Assembly: GCA_937873155.1 (NCBI GenBank)
Contig: CALMVZ010000036.1
Span: forward strand, 1-64,000
Direction of reading: 5' to 3'
Origin: an uncultured Bacteroidota bacterium
GTDB lineage: Bacteria; Bacteroidota; Bacteroidia; B-17B0; Aurantibacillaceae
Length of the DNA: 64,000 nt
Under the pieces are notes generated by a model. It saw only the letters and a program-made list of their open reading frames with translations. It did not search any database and was not told the origin of the DNA. Both the position numbers and the translations under genes were made by a program. Position 1 is the first letter of the stretch. Every line of letters starts with the position of its first letter. Of this stretch, positions 40,894-56,517 are shown one piece after another.

Positions 40894-42717
40894 CTAGTGT
40901 TCGCCACCATCGTGCTCTCCGTCGGCCAGAGGAACTGTTTGCGGAACGAAATCTTCGTTTTGACCAGGCTTGCTGTAATCGTAAGCCCAACGGTGAACTA
41001 CCGGTAATTTACCTGGCCAGTTACCGTGGATATTAGCTACAGGAGTGGTCCACTCTAATGTATTTGAATTCCATGGGTTCTGAGGAGCTTTATCTCCACG
41101 GAAAATGCTATAGAAGAAGTTAAATAAGAATACTAATTGTCCTAACGCACCAATGATAGCGAATACGGTACAGATCTCGTTAATGTCAACTAAATTATCG
41201 AACATCGGGAAGTTGCTGTTTGTGTAGTAACGGCGCGGCACACCTGCAAGACCTAAGAAGTGTTGCGGGAAGAATACACCGTACGCAGCGATAAATGTGA
41301 TCCAAAAATGTAAGTAACCTAATTTCTTGTTCATCATGCGCAGGAACATTTTCGGGAACCAGTGGTAAACACCGGCGAACATACCGAAGATCGCAGATAG
41401 ACCCATTACAATGTGGAAGTGGGCTACTACGAAGTATGTATCATGTACGTTAATATCTAATGCAGAGTCAGCAAGGATGATCCCTGTAACACCACCGGAA
41501 ATAAATGAAGAAACTAATCCGATAGAGAATAACATCGCCGGCGTGTACTGCACATTACCTTTCCAGAGTGTTGTAATGTAGTTGAACGCTTTTACAGCGG
41601 AAGGAATTGCAATTAATAAAGTAGTGAATACGAATACGGATCCCAAGAACGGATTCATACCGGTCATGTACATATGATGACCCCACACAATGAACGATAA
41701 GAAACCGATCGCTAACATAGATCCGATCATCGCGCGGTATCCGAAGATCGGTTTACGTGCCATTGTTGAGATAACTTCAGAAGTGATACCTAATGCAGGT
41801 AATAATACGATGTATACCTCAGGGTGACCTAAGAACCAGAATAAGTGTTCGAATAAGATAGGGCTACCACCAACGTTATCTAAAGGACGACCGCCGATAT
41901 AGATATCCGATAAGTAGAAGCTTGTTCCCATACTACGATCGAAGATCAGTAATAAAGCACAAGAGAATAATACAGGGAAAGATAATACACCAAGGATAGC
42001 TGTAATTAAGAACGCCCAAACTGTTAATGGCATACGCGTCATTTTCATTCCTTTTGTACGTAAGTTGATAACTGTGATGATGTAGTTCAAACCTCCTAAT
42101 AAAGATGACACGATGAAGATCGCCATTGAAACTAACCACATGGTCATACCTAATTTAGAACCCGGCATTGCTTCCGGTAATGCGGAGAGCGGTGGGTAAA
42201 TTGTCCAACCACCTGATGCAGGACCATCTTCAATGAAACAAGAAGCTAACATGATCGCGCTTGATGCGAAGAAGAACCAGTATGATAACATGTTTAAGAA
42301 TCCTGATGCCATATCACGTGCTCCGATCTGGTAAGGGATTAATAAGTTAGCGAACGTTCCTGATAATCCTCCTGTTAATACCATGAACACCATGATAGTA
42401 CCGTGGATAGTTACTAACGCTAAATACATATTCGGATCAAGGATACCATCCTTCGCCCATTTATCACCAAGTAATGCATTCACAAAAGCGAATTTTTCAC
42501 CCGGCCACGCTAATTGCATACGGAAGATAACTGACATTGTCATCGCCACGCAAGCCATAATTACCGCAGTAATTAAGAACTGGCGGGAGATCATTTTGTG
42601 ATCCATACTGAAAATGTATTTGCTCACAAACGTCTCGTGGTGCTCGTCATGGTCGTGCGCGTGATCGTGGTGCGTCGCGTGCTCGTGTTCCAATGTTGCT
42701 GTGTGTTTAGTTCCCAT
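40894..42717 (-). CDS. ctaD: cytochrome c oxidase subunit I
   Basis: It is the haem-copper catalytic subunit that reduces O2 to water and pumps protons in the inner membrane. The 607 residues show 12 helices, the haem-Cu ligands HPEVYIVLLPALG (with the cross-linked Tyr), HHMYM and YFVVAHFHIVMG, and IVWGHHMYMTGM. The N-terminus carries a His-rich cytoplasmic tail (HEHATHHDHAHDHDEHHET). The C-terminus ends DGEHDGGEH. It is the last gene of the act-cox operon, just before a strong terminator. Confidence 0.97.
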   Translation of the reverse strand: MGTKHTATLEHEHATHHDHAHDHDEHHETFVSKYIFSMDHKMISRQFLITAVIMACVAMTMSVIFRMQLAWPGEKFAFVNALLGDKWAKDGILDPNMYLALVTIHGTIMVFMVLTGGLSGTFANLLIPYQIGARDMASGFLNMLSYWFFFASSAIMLASCFIEDGPASGGWTIYPPLSALPEAMPGSKLGMTMWLVSMAIFIVSSLLGGLNYIITVINLRTKGMKMTRMPLTVWAFLITAILGVLSFPVLFSCALLLIFDRSMGTSFYLSDIYIGGRPLDNVGGSPILFEHLFWFLGHPEVYIVLLPALGITSEVISTMARKPIFGYRAMIGSMLAIGFLSFIVWGHHMYMTGMNPFLGSVFVFTTLLIAIPSAVKAFNYITTLWKGNVQYTPAMLFSIGLVSSFISGGVTGIILADSALDINVHDTYFVVAHFHIVMGLSAIFGMFAGVYHWFPKMFLRMMNKKLGYLHFWITFIAAYGVFFPQHFLGLAGVPRRYYTNSNFPMFDNLVDINEICTVFAIIGALGQLVFLFNFFYSIFRGDKAPQNPWNSNTLEWTTPVANIHGNWPGKLPVVHRWAYDYSKPGQNEDFVPQTVPLADGEHDGGEH

Positions 42718-42745
42718 CTTGATATATATTAAATTTTTATATTAA

Positions 42746-43780
42746 TTATTTTGAAGCGACCTTTTTAAAAGTTGCCTGTTTAGCTAACCATGCGTTATAA
42801 TCTTTTTCACTTTCAACAACGATATTCATTTGCATACCGTAATGAGAAGCTCCGCAGATCTTGTTACATAATAATAAGTAATCGAACAGAACCGGCTCTT
42901 TTCCGAATTTTGCACGCTGATCATTGATGCCTTTCATCATTTGGATAACGTAAGGATCTTTACGCATTTCTTCAGTGGTTTTAACCGGCTTGAATTTAAA
43001 TGCTGTTACTAAGCCCGGAACGCAATTCATTTGTGCGCGGAAGTGCGGTAAGTAAGCAGAGTGGATCACATCACGTGAACGCATCAATAATTCAATTTCT
43101 CTTCCGATAGGGATATGGAATTCGTCCTTAACGATGATATCATCATTACAAAGAACATCATTGGTATCCAGGCCTACTGAGTTTCCGCCACTGATCTGAC
43201 GGTAATCAGTTGTTCCTAATTTTCCGTCTTTACCTGTGTAACGTGCGCTCCAGTCGAATTGTTTCGCATAAAGTTCGATGGTGATCTTATTCGGATCTTT
43301 TGCGTCATCCATAATCTCATTCCAGTATTTTAAACCGAAGATGATGATGAATGCTAGTGCAACAGCCGGAATGATCGTCCATAACATTTCTAATTTGTTA
43401 CTGTGTGCGAAAAAAGTTGCTTTATTGTTAGTGTTGCCACGGTATTTGTAAGCGAACCAGAAAAGAAAAAAATTTGTAATTAAGAAAACGGGGATAACAA
43501 TAAAGTTCATGTTAACATCCCATAACCAGTCTATTTTAAAACCATGTTCAGATGCAGACTCAGGAAGCGCTCTGTCTTTCCAACGAACCACTTGCCAGAA
43601 AAAGAAAGCAAAGAATGCGAACATGAAGATCAGCATGCCTTTACCCATTGTGTTATTATCGGAATTGGTCAATTCCCATTCTTTGGTTTTTTTCAAACCT
43701 CTTGACAATTCAATTATTCTTAATAATTGGTGGCCCGCAATTATCAGAAGTAGGATGGCTAACAGAACTAAAAGTTTCAT
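42746..43780 (-). CDS. ctaC: cytochrome c oxidase subunit II
   Basis: It carries the CuA electron-entry site. It has 344 residues with an extra pair of N-terminal helices before the usual two (KLEMLWTIIPAVALAFIIIFGL is the last). The periplasmic cupredoxin part has QFDWSARYTG, DVIHSAYLPHFRAQMNCVPG (the His ligand and proton-path residues) and the CuA motif CNKICGASHYGM. A loop of about 30 residues (TTEEMRKDPYVIQMMKGIND) is inserted before the CuA motif. Such long forms are typical of Bacteroidota. No haem-c domain is fused at the end. Confidence 0.95.
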   Translation of the reverse strand: MKLLVLLAILLLIIAGHQLLRIIELSRGLKKTKEWELTNSDNNTMGKGMLIFMFAFFAFFFWQVVRWKDRALPESASEHGFKIDWLWDVNMNFIVIPVFLITNFFLFWFAYKYRGNTNNKATFFAHSNKLEMLWTIIPAVALAFIIIFGLKYWNEIMDDAKDPNKITIELYAKQFDWSARYTGKDGKLGTTDYRQISGGNSVGLDTNDVLCNDDIIVKDEFHIPIGREIELLMRSRDVIHSAYLPHFRAQMNCVPGLVTAFKFKPVKTTEEMRKDPYVIQMMKGINDQRAKFGKEPVLFDYLLLCNKICGASHYGMQMNIVVESEKDYNAWLAKQATFKKVASK

Positions 43781-43831
43781 CTTATTTATTTTTAAATTCT
43801 TTTATAATTTAATTTCTCTTTTCTAATCTTA

Positions 43832-45049
43832 TTAAATTGAATGGTGCATGCTTTCCTGTAAGAACGGATGGTTCTTCACGCGAAGCGGTGCTTTGGTTAA
43901 TTGATTCAATACAACATAAATGAACAATCCTGCAAAAAATGCGAATGTTCCGAATTCCATCCAGCTGACACCTGTCCAGTGGTGACCAACTGTTCCCGGC
44001 ATTACGATCATGATCACATCTAAGAAGTGACCCGCTAAAATAATTGTACCAACAAAAATTAAGAAGAAGAAATTACGTTTGCTGTCGCGGCTCATTAACA
44101 TTACCATCGGGAACGCGAAGTTCACGAATAATACCGTCCACATTAAAGCTTTATAGCTTTCCCAGCGTGTTTGGAAATAAATTACCTCTTCAGGAATATC
44201 TGCATACCAGATCAACATGAACTGAGAGAAGTATAAGTATGTCCATAAGAAAGAGATCGCGAACATCCATTTACCCATATCATGTACTGTACTTTCAGTA
44301 ACGAAATCTAAGTAACCTAATTTCTTTAACCATACAACAAACATTGTAATTGTAACTAATGCGCTGATCCACATTCCGGAGAAAATATACCAGCCATATA
44401 ATGTAGAGAACCAGTGAATGTCGATACTTAATAACCAATCCCATGCAGACGTTGAAGATGTAACAGCGAAAACAACCATGAACCATGCCCCTAATTTTAC
44501 ATTCTTCCAGTGGTAGCTGCTATTCACATCGATATCTAATTTATCAGCGTTAAGAGAGTTCTGACGTAATTTCCAGGTAAACCAAACCCAGGCGATCATA
44601 TATAATGCAGTACGTATCCACCAGAATGCACCGAAATATCCCATTTTACCGGCGATGATCTCATCATGTGCAGCAGCTTCAGGATCCATCCAGGGATAGA
44701 TATGATGAACATGCGCCTGACCAAGAGCAAATAATATCAACATGATAATGATACCAAATGGCAAATACATAGTTACAGCCTCGATCACACGTTTAATTGT
44801 TGTTGACCAACCTGCTTCAGCAGCATACTGCAAGCCTAAAAAGAAAGATGCAGCCAATGCAATCGCCATAAAGAAAAAGGCACTTGCAAAGATATTTGCC
44901 CATGCTCGGTTGTTATGATAATGCTCATCACCTTCAACGTGATCCATCATGAACATGCAAATAATTGAGATCAAACCAATCCCCATTAAAAGGAAAGATG
45001 CCATTTTGGCTTTGGATGGGATGACGAATTGTAGTTTATCAGTATTCAT
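43832..45049 (-). CDS. actF: alternative complex III subunit ActF (NrfD-like)
   Basis: It is an integral membrane subunit of the quinol:cytochrome c oxidoreductase (alternative complex III). It has 405 residues and about ten helices, with WMDPEAAAHDEIIAGKMGYF and MWTVLFVNFAFPMVMLMSRDSKRN loops typical of ActF. ActF is related to ActC and is not known to carry a redox group. It is followed directly by cytochrome oxidase subunit II. Confidence 0.93.
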   Translation of the reverse strand: MNTDKLQFVIPSKAKMASFLLMGIGLISIICMFMMDHVEGDEHYHNNRAWANIFASAFFFMAIALAASFFLGLQYAAEAGWSTTIKRVIEAVTMYLPFGIIIMLILFALGQAHVHHIYPWMDPEAAAHDEIIAGKMGYFGAFWWIRTALYMIAWVWFTWKLRQNSLNADKLDIDVNSSYHWKNVKLGAWFMVVFAVTSSTSAWDWLLSIDIHWFSTLYGWYIFSGMWISALVTITMFVVWLKKLGYLDFVTESTVHDMGKWMFAISFLWTYLYFSQFMLIWYADIPEEVIYFQTRWESYKALMWTVLFVNFAFPMVMLMSRDSKRNFFFLIFVGTIILAGHFLDVIMIVMPGTVGHHWTGVSWMEFGTFAFFAGLFIYVVLNQLTKAPLRVKNHPFLQESMHHSI

Positions 45050-45072
45050 ATATTCTAATTTCTATGAATTAA

Positions 45073-45732
45073 TTAATGTTTCGGTTCTTCTTTTTTTACT
45101 TCTGCAACTGCAGGTGTTGTTTTAGCTGTTGAATCAGCAACTGCTGTTTCTTTTGGCCCTTGTAATGTTTGTACGAACAATACTAATTTCCAACGCTCTT
45201 CTGTAGTTAAAATACTTGCATGGTTACCCATTAAACCTTTTCCGTAAGTGATAGAGTGGAAAATTTTTCCTTCAGGTAAATTTTTGATAGTGCCGCTGTT
45301 GTATGCAGGAGGAGCACCGGGTAATTTTTGCCCGACTTTTCCATCACCTGCACCTGTTGCACCATGACAATGAACGCAGTTCTTAGTATATAATAATTGT
45401 GCCTCAGCTAAAACTTCTGCAGAAGAAGCAATTGGGTTCTTTAAATATAAGCCTGCTTGCTCGTATCCTTCCGGTGTGTTTGGATATGCATAAGGAATAT
45501 AACCGCGTGCGATAGTTCCTTTAACAGGCATGAATTGTGTTGAATAAATATCATCACCATTGAATTTGGTTACACCATACACCTCAACAGAAGGCGAGCG
45601 GTACATGTCAGGCATAAATTCAACACCCGGACTGTTCGGATCTTTCTTGCCGTTTAGCATAAAGCCGCAGATGATCAGTAAAACCAGACCAATGATGCTT
45701 ACTGCTTTTATTGTATTATAATTTAGTTTCAT
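45073..45732 (-). CDS. actE: alternative complex III subunit ActE, monohaem cytochrome c
   Basis: It has 219 residues with an N-terminal membrane segment (VSIIGLVLLIICGFML) and one haem-binding CVHCH near residue 120 followed by GATGAGDGKVGQKLP. The axial Met is probably in the GLMGNHAS region. Its tail is charged (AVAEVKKEEPKH). It passes electrons from the ActA haems toward the oxidase CuA site, probably without a soluble carrier, because the oxidase is encoded in the same operon. Confidence 0.93.
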   Translation of the reverse strand: MKLNYNTIKAVSIIGLVLLIICGFMLNGKKDPNSPGVEFMPDMYRSPSVEVYGVTKFNGDDIYSTQFMPVKGTIARGYIPYAYPNTPEGYEQAGLYLKNPIASSAEVLAEAQLLYTKNCVHCHGATGAGDGKVGQKLPGAPPAYNSGTIKNLPEGKIFHSITYGKGLMGNHASILTTEERWKLVLFVQTLQGPKETAVADSTAKTTPAVAEVKKEEPKH

Positions 45733-45750
45733 ACTCTTAATACTTTAAAA

Positions 45751-46308
45751 TTAATATGGTGCCGGTATAAATAATGTTCCTTTATGATTTACCTCTTCAA
45801 CGCTGTGCTCTTTTAAAATAGCTTCTGCTTTTTTTGCCTGCTCATCGTTAAGTTCTAAGTACACTAAGAATTTATCATCAGTAGTTCTTGGGTCCGGATT
45901 TTTCGGACGAGCGCCCGGCACTAACATACAACGTAGTAAATAAGTTAACGCCATACCGTGAGCCGCACAAAATACAGTTGACTCGAAAGTGATCGGGATA
46001 AATGCAGGAACTGCAAAGTAATAAGCCCATGTTGGTTTACCACCAATATCACTGTTCCAATCGTGGATCATCATATACCACATCATCAATGTAGCTAAAC
46101 ATGTTCCGGTAATACCGTAAATGAAAGCGCAAATTGCTAAACGTGTTCTTGGTACACCAATAACTCCATCGATCCCGTGAACAGGAAAAGGTGTGAATAC
46201 ATCTTTAATACGAATACCTGATGCGCGCAACTTTTTGCAAGCTGCCATCATTGGCTCCTCGTCGCCAAACACACCGTGTATAATTTGTTTTGTTGTTCCA
46301 GTTGCCAT
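45751..46308 (-). CDS. actD: alternative complex III subunit ActD (DUF3341)
   Basis: It has 185 residues. An N-terminal cytoplasmic alpha/beta part (IIHGVFGDEEPMMAACKKLRASGIRIKDVFTPFPVHGID) is followed by two membrane helices (ICAFIYGITGTCLATLMMWYM and YYFAVPAFIPITFESTVFC). This is the DUF3341 arrangement of ActD. A small hairpin (46329-46346) sits between it and actC. Confidence 0.93.
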   Translation of the reverse strand: MATGTTKQIIHGVFGDEEPMMAACKKLRASGIRIKDVFTPFPVHGIDGVIGVPRTRLAICAFIYGITGTCLATLMMWYMMIHDWNSDIGGKPTWAYYFAVPAFIPITFESTVFCAAHGMALTYLLRCMLVPGARPKNPDPRTTDDKFLVYLELNDEQAKKAEAILKEHSVEEVNHKGTLFIPAPY

Positions 46309-46328
46309 ATTTTTTGTCTAATATTTAG

Positions 46329-46346
46329 CCGAAGGCTTCCCTTCGG
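46329..46346. repeat. small hairpin between actC and actD
   Basis: CCGAAGG-CTTC-CCTTCGG is a stable stem-loop inside the operon followed on the minus strand by AT-rich DNA. It could protect or process the transcript between the two genes. Confidence 0.5.
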
Positions 46347-46360
46347 GATATTTTTAAATT

Positions 46361-47764
46361 TTAGTGTGCGCTAATGTGTTCGTGTTTATGATTAGCGGCT
46401 GCTTTCTTTTGTGATTCACCTGATTGTTTCAAGATAGTTTTTAATTCAGCTTGTGCAATTACCGGGAAGAAACGGGAGAATAACAGGAAGAAGGTTCCGA
46501 ACATACCAATTGTACCAATGAAAATACCGATATCAATAAAGGACGGCGTATACGTGTTCCAGCTGGATGGTAAGAATGTACGTAATAAGGTAGGAACGAT
46601 AATTACGAAACGCTCGAACCACATACCGATGTTAACCACGATCGATAAAATGAATGTTGCTAAGATAGATGTACGAATTTTCTTGAACCAGAATAACTGC
46701 GGAGAGATAACGTTACAAGTCATCATCGCCCAATAACTCCATGATAACGGTCCGGTCGCACGGTTAAGGAATGCATATTGCTCCCACTCTACACCGGAGT
46801 ACCATGCCATGAATAATTCTGTTAAGTAAGCCACACCTACGATGGAACCTGTAACGATGATTACAATGTTCATGTACTCGATGTGCTTGATAGTTAAATA
46901 CGCTTCTAATTTGTAGATCTTACGCACCACTAACATTAGCGTTAATACCATTGCGAATCCTGAGAATACCGCACCGGACACGAAATAAGGAGGGAAGATC
47001 GTTGTATGCCAACCCGGAACGATAGACGTCGCGAAGTCGAAGGATACTATCGAGTGAACCGAGAATACGAGCGGAGTTGATAAACCTGCTAAAACTAAAG
47101 ATACTTCTTCGAAACGACTCCAGTGACGCGCGCTTCCGCCCCAACCGAATGATAGTAAACCGTACATTTTCTTTTGCCAAGGTTTGATAACGCGGTCGCG
47201 GATCATACCAAAGTCAGGAATTAAACCGATATACCAGAACACTAATGATACAGTGAAATAAGTAGATACCGCGAATACGTCCCATAATAATGGTGAGTTG
47301 AAGTTAGGCCACAATGAACCAAATTGATTTGGTAAAGGGAATAACATATAATCTAACCAGGGACGTCCGGTATGAAGTGTTACGAAGATCGCTGCACACA
47401 TTACGGCGAAGATCGTCATCGCTTCAGCTGAACGGTTGATAGCCATTCTCCATTTCTGGCGGAATAATAATAATACCGCAGAGATTAAAGTTCCGGCGTG
47501 ACCGATACCGATCCACCATACGAAGTTGGTGATATCCCATGCCCAGTCGGCTGAGTTGTTAGAGCCCCAGGCTCCGATACCCACACCAATGGTGTAAGCT
47601 AAACATCCTATACCCCAAAGGAAAGTCAGAGCAGAGATGGTCAATAGAATGTACCATCCTTTTGAAGCTTTACCTTCGATGGGAGCAATAATGTCATCAG
47701 TAATTTGTCGGTACGTTTTTGTACCTAAAATTAACGGTTCCCTGATTTCTGATTCTGCGTGCAT
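46361..47764 (-). CDS. actC: alternative complex III subunit ActC (NrfD-like quinol-binding)
   Basis: It has 467 residues and about ten helices of the NrfD/PsrC type. It starts with REPLILGTKTYRQITDDI and holds WWIGIGHAGTLISAVLLLFRQKWR, where the quinol-site His and Asp lie in the family, and STPLVFSVHSIVSFDFATSIVPGWH. The tail is His-rich (NHKHEHISAH). It is the quinol-oxidising side of the complex. It follows actB closely in the order actABCDEF. Confidence 0.95.
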   Translation of the reverse strand: MHAESEIREPLILGTKTYRQITDDIIAPIEGKASKGWYILLTISALTFLWGIGCLAYTIGVGIGAWGSNNSADWAWDITNFVWWIGIGHAGTLISAVLLLFRQKWRMAINRSAEAMTIFAVMCAAIFVTLHTGRPWLDYMLFPLPNQFGSLWPNFNSPLLWDVFAVSTYFTVSLVFWYIGLIPDFGMIRDRVIKPWQKKMYGLLSFGWGGSARHWSRFEEVSLVLAGLSTPLVFSVHSIVSFDFATSIVPGWHTTIFPPYFVSGAVFSGFAMVLTLMLVVRKIYKLEAYLTIKHIEYMNIVIIVTGSIVGVAYLTELFMAWYSGVEWEQYAFLNRATGPLSWSYWAMMTCNVISPQLFWFKKIRTSILATFILSIVVNIGMWFERFVIIVPTLLRTFLPSSWNTYTPSFIDIGIFIGTIGMFGTFFLLFSRFFPVIAQAELKTILKQSGESQKKAAANHKHEHISAH

Positions 47765-47789
47765 ATCTTTTATTTAATATGATTAATAT

Positions 47790-50700
47790 TTATGCGTGTT
47801 TTTCTTCGTGCTTTTCTTCTGTTTTGTGTTCGCTGCCATGAGCTTTCTCATGATGCATTTCCTCTTCCTGATTTCTAACTTTTACCAAGTAAGATACAGT
47901 AGGTTTTACGCCAAGTTCCTCTAACATGAAATAGTTACGGTTATCAGCTCTCCATTTAGAGATCTCTGAATTCTCATCATTCACATCACCGAACATGATA
48001 GCGTTTGTAGGACAAGCTTGCTGACAAGCAGTTCTGATAGCGCCGTCAACAAGCGGAGCTCCTGCTTTCTTAGCAGTTAACTTACCATCCTGTACGCGTT
48101 GTGCACACATTGAACATTTTTCCATTACACCGCGGGAACGAACAACTACATCCGGATTTAAAACCATACGTCCTAATTCCTGTTGCGCAGGATTTACATC
48201 AGCGAACCAAGTGTTAGCGTTATAGTTGAACCAGTTGAAACGACGAACTTTGAAAGGACAGTTGTTCGCGCAGTAACGTGTACCGATACAACGGTTGTAA
48301 GTCATCATATTTAAACCTTCGTTACTGTGGCTGGTAGCTAATACCGGACAAACAGTTTCGCAAGGCGCGTGGTTACAGTGTTGACACATGATCGGCTGGA
48401 AAGAAACTTTCGGATTATTCGAAGGAGTCTCAAGATCCAGGTTCATTTGTTTGTAACCGATATGTTCCTCTGCAGCTTTTTCTTTGGTCATATCAGAAGA
48501 ATAGTAACGGTCGATACGTAACCAGTACATATCGCGTGTTCTTCCGATCTCTTTTTTACCTACAACAGCAACGTTATTTTCAGCACCGCAGGCAACAACG
48601 CAAGCTGCACATCCGATACAAGCTGTCATATCAATACTCAATCCCCACTTGTGGTTTGGACGAGCGTAATCATCCCAAAGATCAACTTCAGCAATAGGAA
48701 CTTTACCATTATGAGTTGTCATCATGGTAGCCGGGTTCCAAACTTCTTTATCTTTTGTTTTGTATTCGTTAAAAGAAACTTCACGCAAGATCGCTTCTTC
48801 ACGACCCATAATTGTATGCTGGATCTGAGTTGCAGAGAACTGGTGAGTTCCTTCTGCTTTTGCGATACTTGCTACTGAGGTGTTTTGAATTGTGTTATTA
48901 GTTACGTTCAGGAATGCAAACGCGTTAACACCTACTCCATTCGCCACTTTTAATTTTTTTGCAGTGCGTCCGTAACCCAGAGCTAAACCAATAGTTCCAG
49001 GTGCTTGTCCCGGTTGAGGATAAACAGGAGCTGTAACAGAAACACCATTAACTGTAATGGTAGCAATGCTTCCCATAATATCCTGGCGTAACATTTCGTT
49101 CATGCCCATTGCTTTTACATCAGCAGGAGCCATAGTAATGTAATTATCCCAGGTTACTTTAGAGATAGGGTCAGGTAATTCCATTAACCATGGGTTATTG
49201 GATTGGTTACCATTTCCTAAACCAACTTTTTCGTAAACTGCTAATTCATATGCACCACCTTTAACTGAAGTCGCCATTGAAGCAGCTTTGTTATAATCCG
49301 GTGTAGGTAATGTTTCAGATACAGGAGCAACTATTTCTTCTTTAACAGGGGTCTCAACTTTAGTTGTATCTGCTACTGCAGCAACTGCAATGCCATTCAT
49401 GATCGGCATGCCTGCGGAATCTTTTGCCATTACAACAGCAGGGGTTTCTTTAGCAACATTCACTTTTAAAACACCATCGTGTAAAGTGTGAGCCCAGAAA
49501 GAAGCGAAATCCAGATACTTTCCTTGTTGAGGGAAAATATGATTTTGCCAGTATGCTTGTAAGTAAGTATAGTAATTTGATTTTACACCTGCCCAGGCTA
49601 ATAATGTATCCTGGAACTGACGTGTACCTTCGTAACGCGGTGCCGAGAAGATCGGATTGATAGTTGGTTGTTGTAAACTAAAGTGACCTGCTTTTGGATT
49701 TGCATCACCCCATGATTCTAAATAATGGTGATCAGGGCAAACCACATCAGCCATTTCAGAGGTCTCATCCATTACAGAAGAGAAAGAAACTTTTGTTGCT
49801 ACCTTTTTATAAGCTTCAGCAAATTTTAGAGATGCAGGAGCAGTATAAACAGGATTACAGTTGTGAGTTAAGATCACAGAAATTTTTCCTGCGCTCATAT
49901 CAGCAACCAGATCAGTGAATGCTTTATCGTCAGCTTGTTTTAAGTTCGAGTAATTAACGTAATCAACAGTTTTGCCATAGTTATCTAACATCTTGTTGAT
50001 GCCGTTAACTAAAGTTTGAATGCCTTCATCATTTGAACCTGCAACAACTAATGAATTACCTTTATTCTCAACTAATTCTTTAGCAATTTTTGCGATCGCT
50101 TTTTCTGCTTCTGCATTTCCTAATTTAGTTTCTGCAGAAACTTTTGATGCGCCTGTTGCACCTGCAACTTCATTATATAAAGCTGCAACAACTTTACCGT
50201 ACTCCGATGGCTTAACCATGTAGCGGTAATCAGCGTTCGCGCCTGTTAATGATAAGTTAGCTTCGAAATGATAATGTTTGCTCATTACCGGATTTTCTTT
50301 GCTCACTTTACGGCCTTTGCTGTATTGGTTTGCAAATTCTATCGGGCTTAACCATGTACCTAAAAAGTCGCAGGCAATACCAACAATAGTTTTTGCTTTA
50401 GTGAAATTGTATGAAGAAATTACATTCTTACCAAATACATTTTTATTAGCTGCATTTAAAGCTGAATAAGAAACTGCATCGTAAGTAACGTGTTTTGCTT
50501 TCGGATATTTTGCTGTGAACTCGGCAACTACTGCTTTTGTTGAAGGACTGATAACAGATGAAGTTAAGATCGCGATCTCGCCGCTTCCTAAAGCTTTTGC
50601 AACTGTTTCATCAGCATTCTTCCAGGTTGTATAAACACCTTTTAATGTCGGGCCATATAAACGCGCGCCATCATACAAACCAAGTACTGAAGCTTGAACA

Positions 50701-51104
50701 CGTGCACTTGTAGCACCGTGAGAAATTTTTGAAAGCTCATTACCTTCAATTTTTACAGGACGGCCTTCGCGTGTTTTAACTAAAACAGATGCGTAATCGT
50801 GACCATCATAAAAAGTTGAAGCATACCAGTTAGCTACACCGGGTGTAACTTCTTCCGGCTTTACAACATAAGGAATTGCTTTGTTAACAGGAGTTTCACA
50901 GGCGGCTAATGCAACTGCAGCTGTAGAAAAGCCCATTACTTTTAAGAAATCACGGCGGCTTGTGCCGGATTTTTCTTCCTCTTCTCCGTTTAGAAATTCA
51001 TCTATCGGAAGTGGTTCAGCAAACTCGCTCTGATGTTGCTTTAAAAACTCAGGGCTTTCATTTAATTCTGATAAGCCTCTCCAGTATTTTTTTGACATAG
51101 ACAT
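47790..51104 (-). CDS. actB: alternative complex III subunit ActB (iron-sulfur, molybdopterin-like)
   Basis: It has 1104 residues. The N-terminus has a Tat signal with lipobox (TSRRDFLKVMGFSTAAVALAAC, written here in parts RRDFLKVMG and LAAC). A long molybdopterin-oxidoreductase-like region without the cofactor follows. The C-terminal part has ferredoxin-like Cys clusters: CIGCAACVVACGAENN, CQHCNHAPCETVCP, CIGTRYCANNCPFKVR, CSMCAQRVQ and CQQACP. In the family these hold three 4Fe-4S and one 3Fe-4S clusters. It carries electrons from ActC to the ActA haems. The C-terminal tail is His/Glu/Lys-rich. Confidence 0.96.
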   Translation of the reverse strand: MSMSKKYWRGLSELNESPEFLKQHQSEFAEPLPIDEFLNGEEEEKSGTSRRDFLKVMGFSTAAVALAACETPVNKAIPYVVKPEEVTPGVANWYASTFYDGHDYASVLVKTREGRPVKIEGNELSKISHGATSARVQASVLGLYDGARLYGPTLKGVYTTWKNADETVAKALGSGEIAILTSSVISPSTKAVVAEFTAKYPKAKHVTYDAVSYSALNAANKNVFGKNVISSYNFTKAKTIVGIACDFLGTWLSPIEFANQYSKGRKVSKENPVMSKHYHFEANLSLTGANADYRYMVKPSEYGKVVAALYNEVAGATGASKVSAETKLGNAEAEKAIAKIAKELVENKGNSLVVAGSNDEGIQTLVNGINKMLDNYGKTVDYVNYSNLKQADDKAFTDLVADMSAGKISVILTHNCNPVYTAPASLKFAEAYKKVATKVSFSSVMDETSEMADVVCPDHHYLESWGDANPKAGHFSLQQPTINPIFSAPRYEGTRQFQDTLLAWAGVKSNYYTYLQAYWQNHIFPQQGKYLDFASFWAHTLHDGVLKVNVAKETPAVVMAKDSAGMPIMNGIAVAAVADTTKVETPVKEEIVAPVSETLPTPDYNKAASMATSVKGGAYELAVYEKVGLGNGNQSNNPWLMELPDPISKVTWDNYITMAPADVKAMGMNEMLRQDIMGSIATITVNGVSVTAPVYPQPGQAPGTIGLALGYGRTAKKLKVANGVGVNAFAFLNVTNNTIQNTSVASIAKAEGTHQFSATQIQHTIMGREEAILREVSFNEYKTKDKEVWNPATMMTTHNGKVPIAEVDLWDDYARPNHKWGLSIDMTACIGCAACVVACGAENNVAVVGKKEIGRTRDMYWLRIDRYYSSDMTKEKAAEEHIGYKQMNLDLETPSNNPKVSFQPIMCQHCNHAPCETVCPVLATSHSNEGLNMMTYNRCIGTRYCANNCPFKVRRFNWFNYNANTWFADVNPAQQELGRMVLNPDVVVRSRGVMEKCSMCAQRVQDGKLTAKKAGAPLVDGAIRTACQQACPTNAIMFGDVNDENSEISKWRADNRNYFMLEELGVKPTVSYLVKVRNQEEEMHHEKAHGSEHKTEEKHEEKHA

Positions 51105-51132
51105 CTATATAATTATCGTTAGTACCGCTTTA

Positions 51133-52428
51133 TTAATAATGACATTTTTGACACTCCAATCCACCAATTTTATCAACGGTGAATTTCACATCGTACTGTC
51201 CTTTGTATTTTTCTTTTAATGCTTTGTGAAGGCGGTCGTAATATGCATTGCCTTCCATTGCCACTTCAGTTGTGCGGTGACAATCTACACACCATCTCAT
51301 AGTAAGCGGAGCTTTTTGCTCAACAGTGGTCATTGCCTTTACGTCGCCATGACATTTTGCGCAATCAATCTTACCAACTACAACGTGCTGTGAGTGATTG
51401 AAGTAAACGTGATCAGGTAAGTTGTGAACTTTTAACCATGCAAGAGGATGTTGTTTGCTTGCATCATTCGGATTCCACTTATTCGGATCAGCAGGGTCAA
51501 AACCTGCAGCGTAATGGATCTTAGCGATCTCGTCCTTACCCGTGGTAGCACCTTCCTGAATTCCTTTGTGGCAATTCATACAAACGTTAACTGAAGGGAT
51601 ACCTGCGTGACGTGATTTTTCAACTGTGTTGTGGCAGTATTGACAAGCGATCTCGTTGTCGCCAGCGTGAATTTTGTGAGAGAATTTAATTGGCTGTTCA
51701 GGATGATAACCTTTGTTCGTTTCCCAATCGTAATAAACTCCGATATCGTAACAAGCATCCCAACAACTCTTCATTCCGATGAAACCAATGATGATGCACA
51801 TTACACCAACAAAACGACGGTGCCCGGACATCCATAATTTTGCTTCCTCAAAGAAAGTCAAATCAGGACTTTCTGGTTTGCCTTCAGTGCGGTTAGCAGA
51901 GTTTTGTAACGAAGTACGAACGCTGCGGAAAGTAGTGATCATGATGGCTAACAACACAATGATCCCAAGAACTAAGTAAAGTGGTTCAATGCCCGGTTTT
52001 ACTTCTTCACCTTCAGTACCGGTACCACCCGCAGGTTTACCAGGAACTACAACGACCGGAGCAGGGCCTTTTAAAAATCCGATGATCGCGTCAACATCTT
52101 CAGCTTTTAATTCAGCTTCGAAAACGTTCATTGCTGCTTTTCCGTTCTCGGTATAGATCTTATTCGCATAAGCATCTCCGCTTTTGATCATTTTTTCATT
52201 GTTCAGGATCCAACGGTTGATCCAGTCTCCAGGAGGAACGCGGTCGAACACACCCTTTAAACCAGGACCGGTTAATTTCTGATCAGTGTGAGAGTAGTGA
52301 CAAACAGCACACTTTGCCTTGAATAATTTTGCTCCGTCCGCAGCCTTGATGTTGCCTGAAAACAGGACCAACATCATAGCGATGCCAAGCAGGGATTTGA
52401 AAGAAAAATGAAACATACGATTATACAT
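51133..52428 (-). CDS. actA: alternative complex III subunit ActA, multihaem cytochrome c
   Basis: The start is set at the Met at 52428 (MYNRMFHFSF), since the frame from 52473 has a non-hydrophobic leader. About 431 residues follow. Six CxxCH motifs are visible: CAVCH near residue 40 in an N-terminal class I cytochrome domain, then CQYCH, CMNCH, CAKCH, CVDCH and CQKCH in the C-terminal half after a membrane helix (LYLVLGIIVLLAIMITTF). The first domain thus adds a haem to the pentahaem core. It is first in the operon, so expression is set by the promoter at 52496-52524. Confidence 0.94.
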   Translation of the reverse strand: MYNRMFHFSFKSLLGIAMMLVLFSGNIKAADGAKLFKAKCAVCHYSHTDQKLTGPGLKGVFDRVPPGDWINRWILNNEKMIKSGDAYANKIYTENGKAAMNVFEAELKAEDVDAIIGFLKGPAPVVVVPGKPAGGTGTEGEEVKPGIEPLYLVLGIIVLLAIMITTFRSVRTSLQNSANRTEGKPESPDLTFFEEAKLWMSGHRRFVGVMCIIIGFIGMKSCWDACYDIGVYYDWETNKGYHPEQPIKFSHKIHAGDNEIACQYCHNTVEKSRHAGIPSVNVCMNCHKGIQEGATTGKDEIAKIHYAAGFDPADPNKWNPNDASKQHPLAWLKVHNLPDHVYFNHSQHVVVGKIDCAKCHGDVKAMTTVEQKAPLTMRWCVDCHRTTEVAMEGNAYYDRLHKALKEKYKGQYDVKFTVDKIGGLECQKCHY

Positions 52429-52495
52429 ATTTTTACGGGCAGAATTCCCGGGGTTTTTATGGATAGATGACACTATAATGACAGTTTATTGGGGG

Positions 52496-52680: not shown

Positions 52681-53691
52681 TTGAAAGAATTTAAGCTCAT
52701 ACTTGCCAAATTAAGTTTTGGGAAAATACTGAACGCAGCAAGGGTTTTTACATCTTACTATGTATCAAAAATTTACAAGAAACCGCTTATAAAAGCGTTT
52801 CCGATCAGTATCTCCATCGAACCAACAACCAGCTGCAATTTACGTTGTCCGGAATGTCCGAGCGGCCTCCGACAATTTACCCGGCCAACCGGCATGCTGG
52901 ATCAGGACTTTTTTAAAAAAATAATTTCTGAGCTTAAAAATACGCTCATAAATCTGACCTTTTATTTTCAGGGCGAACCTTATTTAAATCCGAAGTTTTT
53001 GGACATGGTGAAGCACGCTTCTGAAAACGGAATCTTCACCATAACGAGCACAAATGCCCATTATTTAAATGATGAAAATGCTAAGAAAACTATTGAAAGC
53101 CAATTAGATAAGTTGATAATTTCAGTTGATGGGACGACCCAGGAAACATACGAGCAATACCGGATCGGCGGCGACCTGAACAAAGTTATAGAAGGTACTA
53201 AAAATATTGTAAAATGGCGGAAACAATTGAAGAGTAAGAGGCCATTAATTGTGTTCCAATTTTTGGTAGTAAAACCGAACGAACATCAAATTTCTGATGT
53301 TTACAAACTGGCTGAAGAATTAGGTGTTGATGATGTGAAATTAAAAACGGCTCAAGTTTATGATTTCGAAAACGGAAATGATCTCATCCCTGAAAACGAA
53401 AAATACGCGCGCTACCAACAAAATTCAAAAGGAAAATGGTCGATCAAAAATAAATTACTGAATCAATGCTGGAGAATGTGGAGCGGTTGTGTGATCACCT
53501 GGGACGGGCTCATTGTTCCCTGCTGTTTTGATAAAGATGCGAAACACCAACTAGGCGATCTGAAAGAAAAAACTTTTAAAACTATCTGGTTGTCGGAAGG
53601 CTATATGAATTTCAGAAGATCAATTCTTAAGTCGAGGAAAGAAATTGACATTTGCACCAATTGTACAGAGGGAACTAAAGTGTGGGCTTAG
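52681..53691 (+). CDS. radical SAM/SPASM protein (TTG start)
   Basis: It has 336 residues. The radical SAM cluster motif TTSCNLRCPECPSG (CxxxCxxC) lies near residue 55. The C-terminal SPASM part has CWRMWSGCVITWDGLIVPCC and CTNC. Together they bind extra iron-sulfur clusters. The start is TTG: an in-frame TGA sits 12 bp upstream, and there is no Met before the cluster motif. The nearby ATG at 52668 is in another frame. The target is unknown. Its TAG stop overlaps the TAA stop of the convergent HemD-like gene (shared bases 53688-53691). Confidence 0.9.
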   Translation: MKEFKLILAKLSFGKILNAARVFTSYYVSKIYKKPLIKAFPISISIEPTTSCNLRCPECPSGLRQFTRPTGMLDQDFFKKIISELKNTLINLTFYFQGEPYLNPKFLDMVKHASENGIFTITSTNAHYLNDENAKKTIESQLDKLIISVDGTTQETYEQYRIGGDLNKVIEGTKNIVKWRKQLKSKRPLIVFQFLVVKPNEHQISDVYKLAEELGVDDVKLKTAQVYDFENGNDLIPENEKYARYQQNSKGKWSIKNKLLNQCWRMWSGCVITWDGLIVPCCFDKDAKHQLGDLKEKTFKTIWLSEGYMNFRRSILKSRKEIDICTNCTEGTKVWA

Positions 53692-54779
53692 CGTTTATTC
53701 GCTTCTTTTACGTAAGCATCTATTGCACCACTCATACTCGGATTTTGAGGATTCGGTGCAAAAATATCTAAACGATATCCTAATTGTTTTACGTTCTGCG
53801 CAGTGGCATGACCAAAAGCTGCAATACGTGTATTCCCTTGTTTAAAATTAGGGAAGTTTTGTTTCAGAGAACGGATCCCCGCAGGAGTAAAGAATACGAT
53901 CATATCGTAATCGTTCAGATTTTTTATATCTGACAGATCAGCAGAAACAGTTCTGTAAATAACTGCTTTTGTATACTGGATCTGCAATTCATCAAGGAAA
54001 TCCACAATTTGTTCTTTGTGAACATCAGAAACCGGCAACAGGAATTTTTCCTCGCGGTTCTTACGGATCACATCAACAAGATCGATGATAGTTCCGTGTC
54101 CGAAGAAAATTTTACGCTTACGGTACTGGATATATTTCTGAAGATAGTATGCTGTTTGTTCGTTGATGCAAAAATACTTCATCGTTTCAGGAACGGTAAT
54201 ACGCATCTCGTTACACACACGGAAATAATGATCGACCGATTGTTTACTGGTTAAAATTACTGCATGATGTTGTAAGATATCGACGCGTTGTGCCCTGAAA
54301 TCAAGTGCAGAAACGCCCTCTACTTTAATGAATTGGCGGAAGTGAACAAATAAAGAATGTTTACGTGCTAATTCAATATATGGGTTCTTATCATTCTCAG
54401 GTTTTGGCTGGGAAACTAATATGTTCTTTACTCTTGTTTTCGGGTGAGTGCTGACCTCTATAACAGGAAGCGGCGGCGGTGTATAAAGCGGTTGTTTCGC
54501 GTTCTTACGTTCTTTCTTTACTACAACAACTTCTTCTTTTTTAATTTTTTCCGGCTTAGGTGCTTTTTCTGCTACTTTTTTTGCGGGTTTAACTACCGCT
54601 TTTTTTATAGCTTTTTTAGGCTTCAGTGCTTTTTTAGCTTTTGCAACAATTTTTTTCTTAACCGGTTTTTTTGATGACTTTTTTACGGCTGTTTTTTTAG
54701 CAGACTTCTGTTTTTTTGCTTTAGTGGCTTTCCCCCCGCTCTTCTTAACAGACTTCGATCTTATTTTTTTAGCCGCCAT
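53688..54779 (-). CDS. uroporphyrinogen-III synthase homologue with lysine-rich tail
   Basis: It has 363 residues. Residues 1 to about 95 are a repeated Lys/Ala/Pro tract (KKSGGKATKAKKQKSAKK type), like histone H1 tails, with no predicted fold. After the PPPLPV linker comes a HemD domain (residues ~115-360) with KNILVSQPKPE, HHAVILTSKQSVDHYF, TAYYLQKYI, LLPVSDVHKEQIVDFL, IVFFTPAGIRSLKQNF and IAAFGHATAQNVKQLG. A complete HemD is already fused to HemC (7116-8693), so this may be a paralogue with changed function or a second synthase. It follows DUF4271 by 5 bp. Confidence 0.82.
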   Translation of the reverse strand: MAAKKIRSKSVKKSGGKATKAKKQKSAKKTAVKKSSKKPVKKKIVAKAKKALKPKKAIKKAVVKPAKKVAEKAPKPEKIKKEEVVVVKKERKNAKQPLYTPPPLPVIEVSTHPKTRVKNILVSQPKPENDKNPYIELARKHSLFVHFRQFIKVEGVSALDFRAQRVDILQHHAVILTSKQSVDHYFRVCNEMRITVPETMKYFCINEQTAYYLQKYIQYRKRKIFFGHGTIIDLVDVIRKNREEKFLLPVSDVHKEQIVDFLDELQIQYTKAVIYRTVSADLSDIKNLNDYDMIVFFTPAGIRSLKQNFPNFKQGNTRIAAFGHATAQNVKQLGYRLDIFAPNPQNPSMSGAIDAYVKEANKR

Positions 54780-54784
54780 ATGAT

Positions 54785-55546
54785 TTAAAAATTAACTACT
54801 AAAAATTTTATTAATACCATTAATGGTAAAATTTCTAAAGCGCAAAGATAAACAAATAATTGTAACAAGCCCACGCCCTGTTCAATTCCCGAAAACAGGA
54901 AACCGCGGTAAAGTCTTAAGATATAGCCTAAAACAAGAAATAAAGTTGCGGGTAAAACGATCCAGACAGGGTTAACGGGCGATAGTTCAACGATGATCAT
55001 CACAGGTAAAAGAATAACACCTATCGATTGATTTATGATCAAAGTGTTATTTATGTATTCATTAAATATGCTTGTAGTCTGTGTGACAAACGCAATGATG
55101 TTCGCCGCTAATATCTTCACTGAATACACCAAAATAATAACTAAAACGAAAAAGAGATATTGAAATAAGCTTCCGTTATTACTTAGTATCGATCCGAAGA
55201 GCAAATTGAGTTTATAAAAAAGAAAAGCGGTTATCAGAACAAACACTGCGCTTAAAACAATGGATACGCGTTTTAAAGGGCCGTAATCCTCCCGCTCAAT
55301 TTGTCTTGCTACCTGCAAACTATAAGCTGCATTTAAAACACGGAATGTTTTTTGCGGCGATGTGGCTTTTAAAAGCACCAATAAACAGAGAACAATAAAT
55401 AAAACCACTGAAGGCCAGTATAAGATCTCTGCATTATTAAAGATAGCCGTATCGTGAATTGGTTTTAGTAAATGATCTTTGAATAACGGCTCATAATTGA
55501 GCTGGGTTATTATTTGGTTTGCATATAGAGCCAAACCTATGATCAT
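54785..55546 (-). CDS. DUF4271 membrane protein
   Basis: It has 253 residues and about seven helices, for example PSVVLFIVLCLLVLLKATS, VSIVLSAVFVLITAFLFYKL and YLFFVLVIILVYSVKILAAN. A conserved central block is EYINNTLIINQSIGVILLPV. DUF4271 proteins are commonly found next to a HemD homologue in Bacteroidota, as here, but their role is unknown. It lies 13 bp after the DUF5777 stop, so all three may be one transcript. Confidence 0.85.
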   Translation of the reverse strand: MIIGLALYANQIITQLNYEPLFKDHLLKPIHDTAIFNNAEILYWPSVVLFIVLCLLVLLKATSPQKTFRVLNAAYSLQVARQIEREDYGPLKRVSIVLSAVFVLITAFLFYKLNLLFGSILSNNGSLFQYLFFVLVIILVYSVKILAANIIAFVTQTTSIFNEYINNTLIINQSIGVILLPVMIIVELSPVNPVWIVLPATLFLVLGYILRLYRGFLFSGIEQGVGLLQLFVYLCALEILPLMVLIKFLVVNF

Positions 55547-55559
55547 AGATCAGAAAAAA

Positions 55560-56498
55560 TTAAAATGCGAAAGTCCTTGAAATGCAGAATCCGAATTTGA
55601 CCTGGCTTTTGCTCCAGGTGTCAGTTGTGTACGGAATAAAATTATTTTCGATCAAAGCAGATGAGTTAGTGAAGAACAAACTGAATACATGTCCGCCTGT
55701 TTCGATCTCAAAACCTAATGCTAAAGGATTGAATACGGAAGTGTTGTTTTGATAAAAAGGCGCAAAGTTGTAAAAATAATCGCCGATCAAACACACACGC
55801 TTTGTTAACTTAATGCGTCCTCCTACTCCTAAAGAAAAGAAACCGTTCACATCTTCAACGCCATCAGCATTCACACGCTGAACAATAAAATTACGGTGCA
55901 TATAAGAGGGAAGGATCTCAAGCGATAACCATTCAGTTAATTTACTTGCAATGATCAATTGCGAAAAATAATTGAAACGGTGTACATCATTTGTTTCGAA
56001 ATTTTTTACGGCGCCGGCATATAAAAGATCAGAGTTAACTGAAGTATATCCAACATCACCAAAGAATGTAATTGAAACCGGAACTTTAAAATTCTCTTTC
56101 TGGCTTAATAATTTCCATTTGATGCTGCCATCATAAGTTTCTTTAAAACGGCTGCGGCCAACGCCTATTGTAATATTATCAGTAACCCCATAATCGAACG
56201 ACCATCGGATATCACTTGCGTTATCAAAACCAAAATAAGTGTGGGCTGCTTCATTCAACGCTTTGTCACCATTATCCATGTTATATACATTTCCGAAGCG
56301 ATGGGAGATGCGAAAATCAAGACAGTTCTTTTTTACTGTTTCGATGGTTTGTGCGTTACCTAATTTGTAAGTTTTAAACGTAGCATAAACTTTTTTAGGG
56401 CCTTCATCTTTTTTATCATCCACTAAACTTAAAAGATCTTCCTGTGCAAAAACAGAAATGCTGAATATTAACGATAAAAAAAGTAATGATGTCCTCAT
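55560..56498 (-). CDS. DUF5777 family outer-membrane-barrel-like protein
   Basis: The start at 56498 gives the signal peptide MRTSLLFLSLIFSISVFAQ. The longer frame from 56516 begins right at a -7 box. The mature protein of about 290 residues has FRISHRFGNVYNMD, YFGFDNASDIRWSFDYGVTDNITIGVGRSRF and many amphipathic strands ending in an aromatic (FCISRTFAF), as barrels do. DUF5777 proteins are often encoded next to a YceI protein, as here. A redox or lipid-carrier role has been guessed but is unproven. Confidence 0.85.
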   Translation of the reverse strand: MRTSLLFLSLIFSISVFAQEDLLSLVDDKKDEGPKKVYATFKTYKLGNAQTIETVKKNCLDFRISHRFGNVYNMDNGDKALNEAAHTYFGFDNASDIRWSFDYGVTDNITIGVGRSRFKETYDGSIKWKLLSQKENFKVPVSITFFGDVGYTSVNSDLLYAGAVKNFETNDVHRFNYFSQLIIASKLTEWLSLEILPSYMHRNFIVQRVNADGVEDVNGFFSLGVGGRIKLTKRVCLIGDYFYNFAPFYQNNTSVFNPLALGFEIETGGHVFSLFFTNSSALIENNFIPYTTDTWSKSQVKFGFCISRTFAF

Positions 56499-56517
56499 GG
56501 CCGGATGTTTAAACATT

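Follow-up and report, generated by a model that had tools for sequence, protein, structure and literature searches.

The window (i.e., the whole stretch of 64,000 nucleotides that was analysed) contains both a stand-alone gene for a HemD-type protein, the family of which is referred to here as HEM4S, and a HemC-HemD fusion. These genes and the features discussed below are listed in Table 1.

Table 1. Features of the HEM4S locus and of related genes in the same genome (window positions, unless preceded by a locus name).
Feature	Position	Strand	Basis
HEM4S: stand-alone HemD-family protein with N-terminal Lys/Ala/Pro head, 363 aa, ATG start	53688..54779	-	ORF list, Pfam
H1-like head of HEM4S, residues 1-113, lineage-specific	54441..54779	-	composition
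HEM4 domain of HEM4S, Pfam residues 136-349; predicted UROS fold	53733..54374	-	Pfam, model pLDDT 95.6
Basic motif YRKRKIF, residues 219-225; HEM4S-typical, absent from the HemDs aligned	54105..54125	-	alignments
T-P-A, residues 298-300, vs. S-P-S in canonical HemD (two pocket positions changed)	53880..53888	-	alignments
Motif APNPQNPSM, residues 341-349; HEM4S-typical	53733..53759	-	alignments
DUF4271 multi-helix membrane protein, constant partner gene	54785..55546	-	Pfam, loci comparison
DUF4271 C-terminal motif YLCALEILP, containing all four invariant or nearly invariant columns of the family alignment	54824..54850	-	alignment
HemC-HemD fusion with all five canonical HemD pocket residues	7116..8693	-	Pfam, alignment
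DUF5777 outer-membrane-type protein, next gene upstream, likewise in the window's close relatives	55560..56516	-	Pfam
Lys/Ala/Pro head on AhpC/TSA peroxiredoxin, same genome	L172:7334-8140	-	
Lys/Ala/Pro head on DksA/TraR-type zinc-finger protein, same genome	L182:10853-11866	+	

With the Pfam HEM4 model (PF02602; cut-off of 27.5 bits), HEM4S scored 108.2 bits and the fusion, in its C-terminal half, 87.8 bits; these were the only two matches in the assembly of the window, where the same search revealed no third HEM4. Both proteins stayed below the cut-off of 275 bits of the NCBIfam UROS equivalog (best score of 45.6 bits for HEM4S, and 63 bits for the fused HemD). Next to the fusion lie hemA (identified via Pfam) and an apparent hemB (read from its translation). 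The product of the gene located 5 nt upstream of HEM4S scored 92.2 bits with the DUF4271 model (PF14093; cut-off of 29.7). The initial annotation of this stretch was thus right in recognizing a second HemD homologue besides the fusion, and in coupling it to DUF4271. At the other end, a radical SAM/SPASM gene (52681-53691, plus strand) runs towards HEM4S and shares 4 bases with its end, at a position where several near relatives carry rnpA. Cytochrome oxidase and alternative complex III-like genes, judged as such from their translations, adjoin the locus in one run (40894-52473, minus strand).

The HEM4 domain of HEM4S was modelled by AlphaFold with a pLDDT of 95.6 and is predicted to adopt the fold of uroporphyrinogen-III synthase (UROS, i.e., HemD). 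All 13 PDB matches with an E-value of at most 0.001 in Foldseek were UROS, and VIA returned Z-scores of 13.4-16.8 for UROS structures vs. 8.1 for the next best structure. Besides this predicted fold, HEM4S shares with HemD (PF02602) the order of its motifs and the residues S65, Y162, and T213 (domain numbering). In contrast, HEM4S is distinguished from HemD by Y89-F90-C91, Y99, an RKRK loop (107-110), NFP (195-197) and Q201 (together NFPxFxQ), and PSM (234-236; part of AP..PSM), all of which are rare or absent in HemD.

When 60 Bacteroidia genomes (mostly one genome per family) were searched with the stand-alone domain of the window, a HEM4S relative was found in 57 of them. The three remaining genomes (G425, G434, and G446) lacked DUF4271 as well, and the assembly of G425 is 69% complete. 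A HEM4S profile built from 28 of these relatives (mean column identity of 72%) scored 290-418 bits in 49/49 Bacteroidia vs. 52 bits or less in the 149 genomes from the rest of the phylum sample, in a count where genomes of the same class come first, where none of the named genomes without a match belongs to the class, and where 74 genomes without a match are unnamed. The most divergent member (in G431) was missed by the Pfam HEM4 model and found by the HEM4S profile at 125.7 bits. Because of this miss, and because an excerpt of a 2007 comparison (PMC1887533) reports one match of the Porphyromonas gingivalis protein PG0202 (see below) in the Chlorobi species C. phaeobacteroides, the exclusiveness of HEM4S to the class holds only for the samples used here.

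The genetic context was compared in 80 named loci, which are the best 80 of 587 confirmed relatives and consequently lean towards close relatives (75 of the 80 were parsed), and in 20 deep-lineage loci chosen for diversity and for missing HemC or DUF4271. One record titled Glaciecola amylolytica (L112, CP034120.1) carries a Bacteroidia-type DUF4271-HEM4S locus on its chromosome, and its name looks wrong. Likewise, HEM4S with 41-52% identity is encoded by three short records labelled 'Bacteriophage sp.' (MT838814, MT836169, and MT839959), which stem from human faeces and lack annotation; this is probably bacterial DNA in phage records.

In a tree comprising 24 of 67 HEM4S rows, with the four longest left out, HEM4S formed a single clade (SH-aLRT of 99), and the HemC-linked HemDs of Bacteroidia fell into two other groups. 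Three HemDs on long or moderately long branches (from G012, G007, and G395) grouped with HEM4S. Since the fused HemD of the window was placed in a separate divergent clade of 16, the two HEM4 copies of the window are not recent duplicates.

Pfam detected DUF4271 in 52 of the 60 genomes (in one of them below the cut-off), all within the 57 that carry HEM4S, and in the five other HEM4S genomes (L143, L144, L145, L153, and L155) the upstream region encodes a hydrophobic multi-TM protein ending in a similar but imperfect Y-x-C motif. This protein is encoded directly upstream, except in L153 (G436), where hemC lies in between. Among the parsed named loci, DUF4271 was located immediately upstream of HEM4S and on the same strand in 74/75. 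The sequence of DUF4271 itself shows little conservation (mean column identity of 17%), and since the invariant and nearly invariant columns of its alignment are all found in the C-terminal Y-x-C-x-x-E-x-x-P motif, this motif is the likely point of contact with HEM4S. With regard to the fold of DUF4271, Foldseek yielded no match (best E-value of 2.1) and VIA nothing convincing (best Z-score of 6.5, within the range of helical bundles).

Downstream of HEM4S, two alternative contexts were observed. In 44 of the 75 parsed named loci, RnpA was encoded at +1 or +2, irrespective of strand, and in 16 GldK occupied one of these positions; never were both found together. In 12 of the 18 parsed deep-lineage loci (20 chosen), including that of G431, HEM4S was followed by GldK and GldL, usually with PorP first. 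Model scans confirmed PorP, GldK, GldL, GldM, and GldN in L101, and RnpA and YidD in L102. HEM4S thus directly precedes the type IX secretion (T9SS) operon porP-gldKLMN in many deep lineages. In L153 and L203 (G436), hemC, HEM4S, and porP-gldK-gldL-gldM follow each other, so that haem and T9SS genes are joined in one run. In the window, however, T9SS genes are not adjacent to HEM4S and GldL is located on another contig. Since GldL was found in 56 of the 60 genomes, mere co-occurrence with the T9SS is not discriminating. A role of HEM4S in the T9SS only was ruled out by the GldL-negative genomes G230 and G416, which keep the gene.

The distribution of HEM4S was also compared with that of haem synthesis. 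HemC was missing from 17 of the 60 genomes, a draw that had not been chosen for HemC absence, and HEM4S was kept in all 17. The hemE gene was found in none of the 23 HemC-negative genomes tested (i.e., these 17 and six chosen for having a single HEM4). Even the 0.49-Mb genome of G416 has kept HEM4S. In Bacteroides ihuae, included as a named control, a HEM4 and DUF4271 were present, whereas HemC and GldL were both missing. Although the window genome has HemC, the family as a whole therefore does not show the co-occurrence with HemC by which a UROS would be recognized. Without HemC, hydroxymethylbilane, the substrate of HemD, is absent, and because of the retention in 17/17 HemC-negative genomes the conserved job of HEM4S cannot be uroporphyrinogen synthesis. 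Moreover, in the 16 genomes with both proteins, the mean pairwise identity amounted to 57.6% for HEM4S vs. 32.3% for HemC-linked HemD, and it was higher for HEM4S in 120/120 genome pairs. We firmly conclude that HEM4S is a Bacteroidia-wide, HemC-independent, and UROS-derived family that is paired with a DUF4271-type protein.

The catalytic pocket was scrutinized at five near-invariant positions of HemD (96, 162, 185, 187, and 213 of the domain; T/Y/S/S/T), of which 96, 162, and 213 presumably correspond to human T103, Y168, and T228 (162 and 213 being covered by the alignment made here). The fused HemD of the window reads TYSST, with all five residues intact, which rules out that it is the degenerate copy. 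HEM4S of the window reads TYTAT and has lost the two serines of the canonical set. This comparison of both domains, which the initial annotation had proposed, yielded the opposite of the result that it had named as speaking against its view (i.e., a full pocket in HEM4S next to an inactive fused domain). Judged from these residues, HEM4S of the window has likely lost UROS duty, with the fused HemD doing that job.

Across genomes, the complete pocket was present in 17/19 HemC-linked HemDs (leaving out L201, the source of which has no detected HemD, and L203, which is HEM4S itself) and in 27/28 non-Bacteroidia HemDs (leaving out L021 and L030). Among HEM4S proteins, it was complete in 13/13 from genomes in which HEM4S is the only HEM4, in 11/29 living beside a second HemD (the draw contains 36 such genomes, of which 29 were used), and in 2/23 from HemC-negative genomes. 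G150 and G292, with a weaker HemC-type match and no hemE, were left out of these classes. For the full five-residue set in sole-HEM4 vs. HemC-negative genomes, Fisher's exact test gave a p-value of 4.5e-8, on which we do not rely because the sole-HEM4 class amounts to about two lineages and the tree provides only two independent pairs. The HEM4S-typical residues listed above were nearly invariant in all three classes.

The residues that persist leave room for the main rival to the reading developed below, i.e., that HEM4S and DUF4271 form an inner-membrane module which binds, senses, or delivers haem or tetrapyrroles. S65, Y162, and T213 are nearly universal in HEM4S even without HemC, and where T96 is replaced in HemC-negative genomes, it is replaced solely by Ile or Val (17/17 replacements), as if the shape of the pocket were kept. 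Such a module would also fit the descent from UROS and the haem auxotrophy of the HemC-poor P. gingivalis mentioned in part of PMC13227078. Nevertheless, a pocket Thr and Ser are lost in many HEM4S proteins, with S187 and T96 varying where HEM4S is free of HemD duty, and the recognized neighbours are rnpA/yidD or T9SS genes rather than genes for haem uptake. On balance we consider this module unlikely.

More doubtful still is that HEM4S would simply be a second working uroporphyrinogen-III synthase that is redundant with the fused HemD. Its retention in all HemC-negative genomes of the draw, the two serines missing from the window copy, and a conservation far exceeding that of HemC-linked HemD argue against it, and what speaks for it, next to the predicted fold, comes from other lineages. 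Some HEM4S relatives there resemble working HemD enzymes: in 13 genomes with HemC and hemE (four from the draw and nine picked for their single HEM4; the hemE match of G428 is below the cut-off), HEM4S was the only HEM4 found, with the canonical pocket in each case. In four of these sole-HEM4 regions (L201 by HMM; L222-L224 by ORF starts only), hemC had no apparent HemD next to it, and in G436 HEM4S directly follows hemC. In these roughly two lineages HEM4S is probably a working UROS, as far as its residues and gene context indicate.

The initial annotation had further described a lysine-rich stretch of the histone H1 type in HEM4S, and had taken it as the reason for a possible non-haem function. 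The stretch indeed exists, with 39 K, 15 A, 11 P, and only 6 D+E among residues 1-113, but it constitutes an N-terminal head rather than a C-terminal tail. Since a head of this type is also present in near relatives whose domain is 78-82% identical, that of the window is no chance feature. Nevertheless, no more than 12 of the 130 loci have a Lys-rich extension, at the N-terminus in 8 and at the C-terminus in 4, so that such extensions are not a conserved part of the family; the 8 heads, of at least 40 residues, all belong to the close clade of the window (those of L034 and L065 being identical), and L057 has a further head, with a non-ATG start, besides these 12. Within a 398.5-kb sample of the same genome (326 ORFs, window included), 7 K-rich ORFs were encountered, and in 3 of them, encoding HEM4S, a peroxiredoxin, and a DksA/TraR-like protein, the N-terminus forms an H1-like head. 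The genome hence seems to equip unrelated proteins with such heads. When the head alone was searched against the whole genome, only the head itself and one further match were returned, the latter in the same stretch and in a frame full of stops. The head was therefore rejected as main evidence for the function of HEM4S; it is a local, lineage-specific add-on. The non-haem function itself was supported, albeit on other grounds, i.e., the class-wide retention without HemC and HemE, and the loss of pocket residues while the fused HemD is intact. That HEM4S would be a nucleic-acid-binding factor acting via its head and RKRK loop, and perhaps linked to RNase P, seems very improbable, as the near-invariance of that loop, the frequent proximity of rnpA (model-verified in two loci), and the Lys-rich stretches that several lineages carry at one end or the other are set against relatives that mostly have no extension, deep branches (L143, L153, and L155) with T9SS genes in place of rnpA, and the same type of head on the peroxiredoxin of the window genome.

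Some HEM4S proteins have presumably been encountered before under another name. PG0202 of P. gingivalis was designated 'HemD, putative' and a Bacteroidetes-specific signature protein in the 2007 comparison (excerpt of PMC1887533), and a table in PMC10101095 lists a P. gingivalis gene set HemD-rnpA-yidD-tatD, the order of which is matched by loci L102, L110, and L131. By gene order only, PG0202 is probably an ortholog of HEM4S, and so probably is the P. gingivalis HemD that the available text of PMC13227078 names among the few haem-pathway homologues of this haem auxotroph. PGN_0310 appears in a gene-expression table of a ppGpp-null strain (in the part of PMC6994654 at hand), and the portion of PMC3819652 at hand contained nothing conclusive on the HEM4S gene. 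Among the literature matches listed (subscription papers being outside the scope), no functional study of the HEM4S gene was recognized.

Altogether, HEM4S is probably a HemD of ancient origin to which a second job was added. The explanation that we favour, with some reservation, is that this UROS-derived protein would work together with the DUF4271 inner-membrane protein as an adaptor in envelope biogenesis. Its ancestor would have been a working HemD that acquired an additional job for which HemC is not required. Where another HemD is present or haem synthesis is missing, lineages would have retained the additional job only and let go of catalytic pocket residues, and in a few lineages HEM4S may still serve both jobs. 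The remodelled cleft and the basic RKRK loop suggest a binding or adaptor protein rather than an enzyme, which might reside on the cytoplasmic side of the membrane and dock on the C-terminal helix of DUF4271 (a guess from the conservation of its motif). The role in envelope biogenesis would ancestrally have been exerted near the T9SS motor. In the window, the fused HemD would make uroporphyrinogen III, and the Lys-rich head of HEM4S might be an accessory adding non-specific binding of polyanions.

More tentatively, and as a possibility that we would sooner doubt than accept, a haem-pathway enzyme may already in the ancestor of the Bacteroidia have become an indispensable, non-enzymatic partner of DUF4271, a class-specific inner-membrane protein, in envelope or T9SS biogenesis. 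The single 'HemD' encoded by haem auxotrophs like Bacteroides and Porphyromonas would then represent that module and no leftover of haem synthesis. The main job of HEM4S is in any case probably other than making haem. In a Bacteroidota species that is auxotrophic for haem, the lone HemD homologue is counted as a haem-pathway protein (cf. the part of PMC13227078 cited above), and recognizing that such proteins belong to a class-wide module that is kept for another reason corrects predictions of the haem pathway. HEM4S and DUF4271 constitute a directly testable gene pair, and as HEM4S seems still to be the sole HemD in some lineages, it offers a natural case of a protein holding, and then shedding, an enzymatic job.
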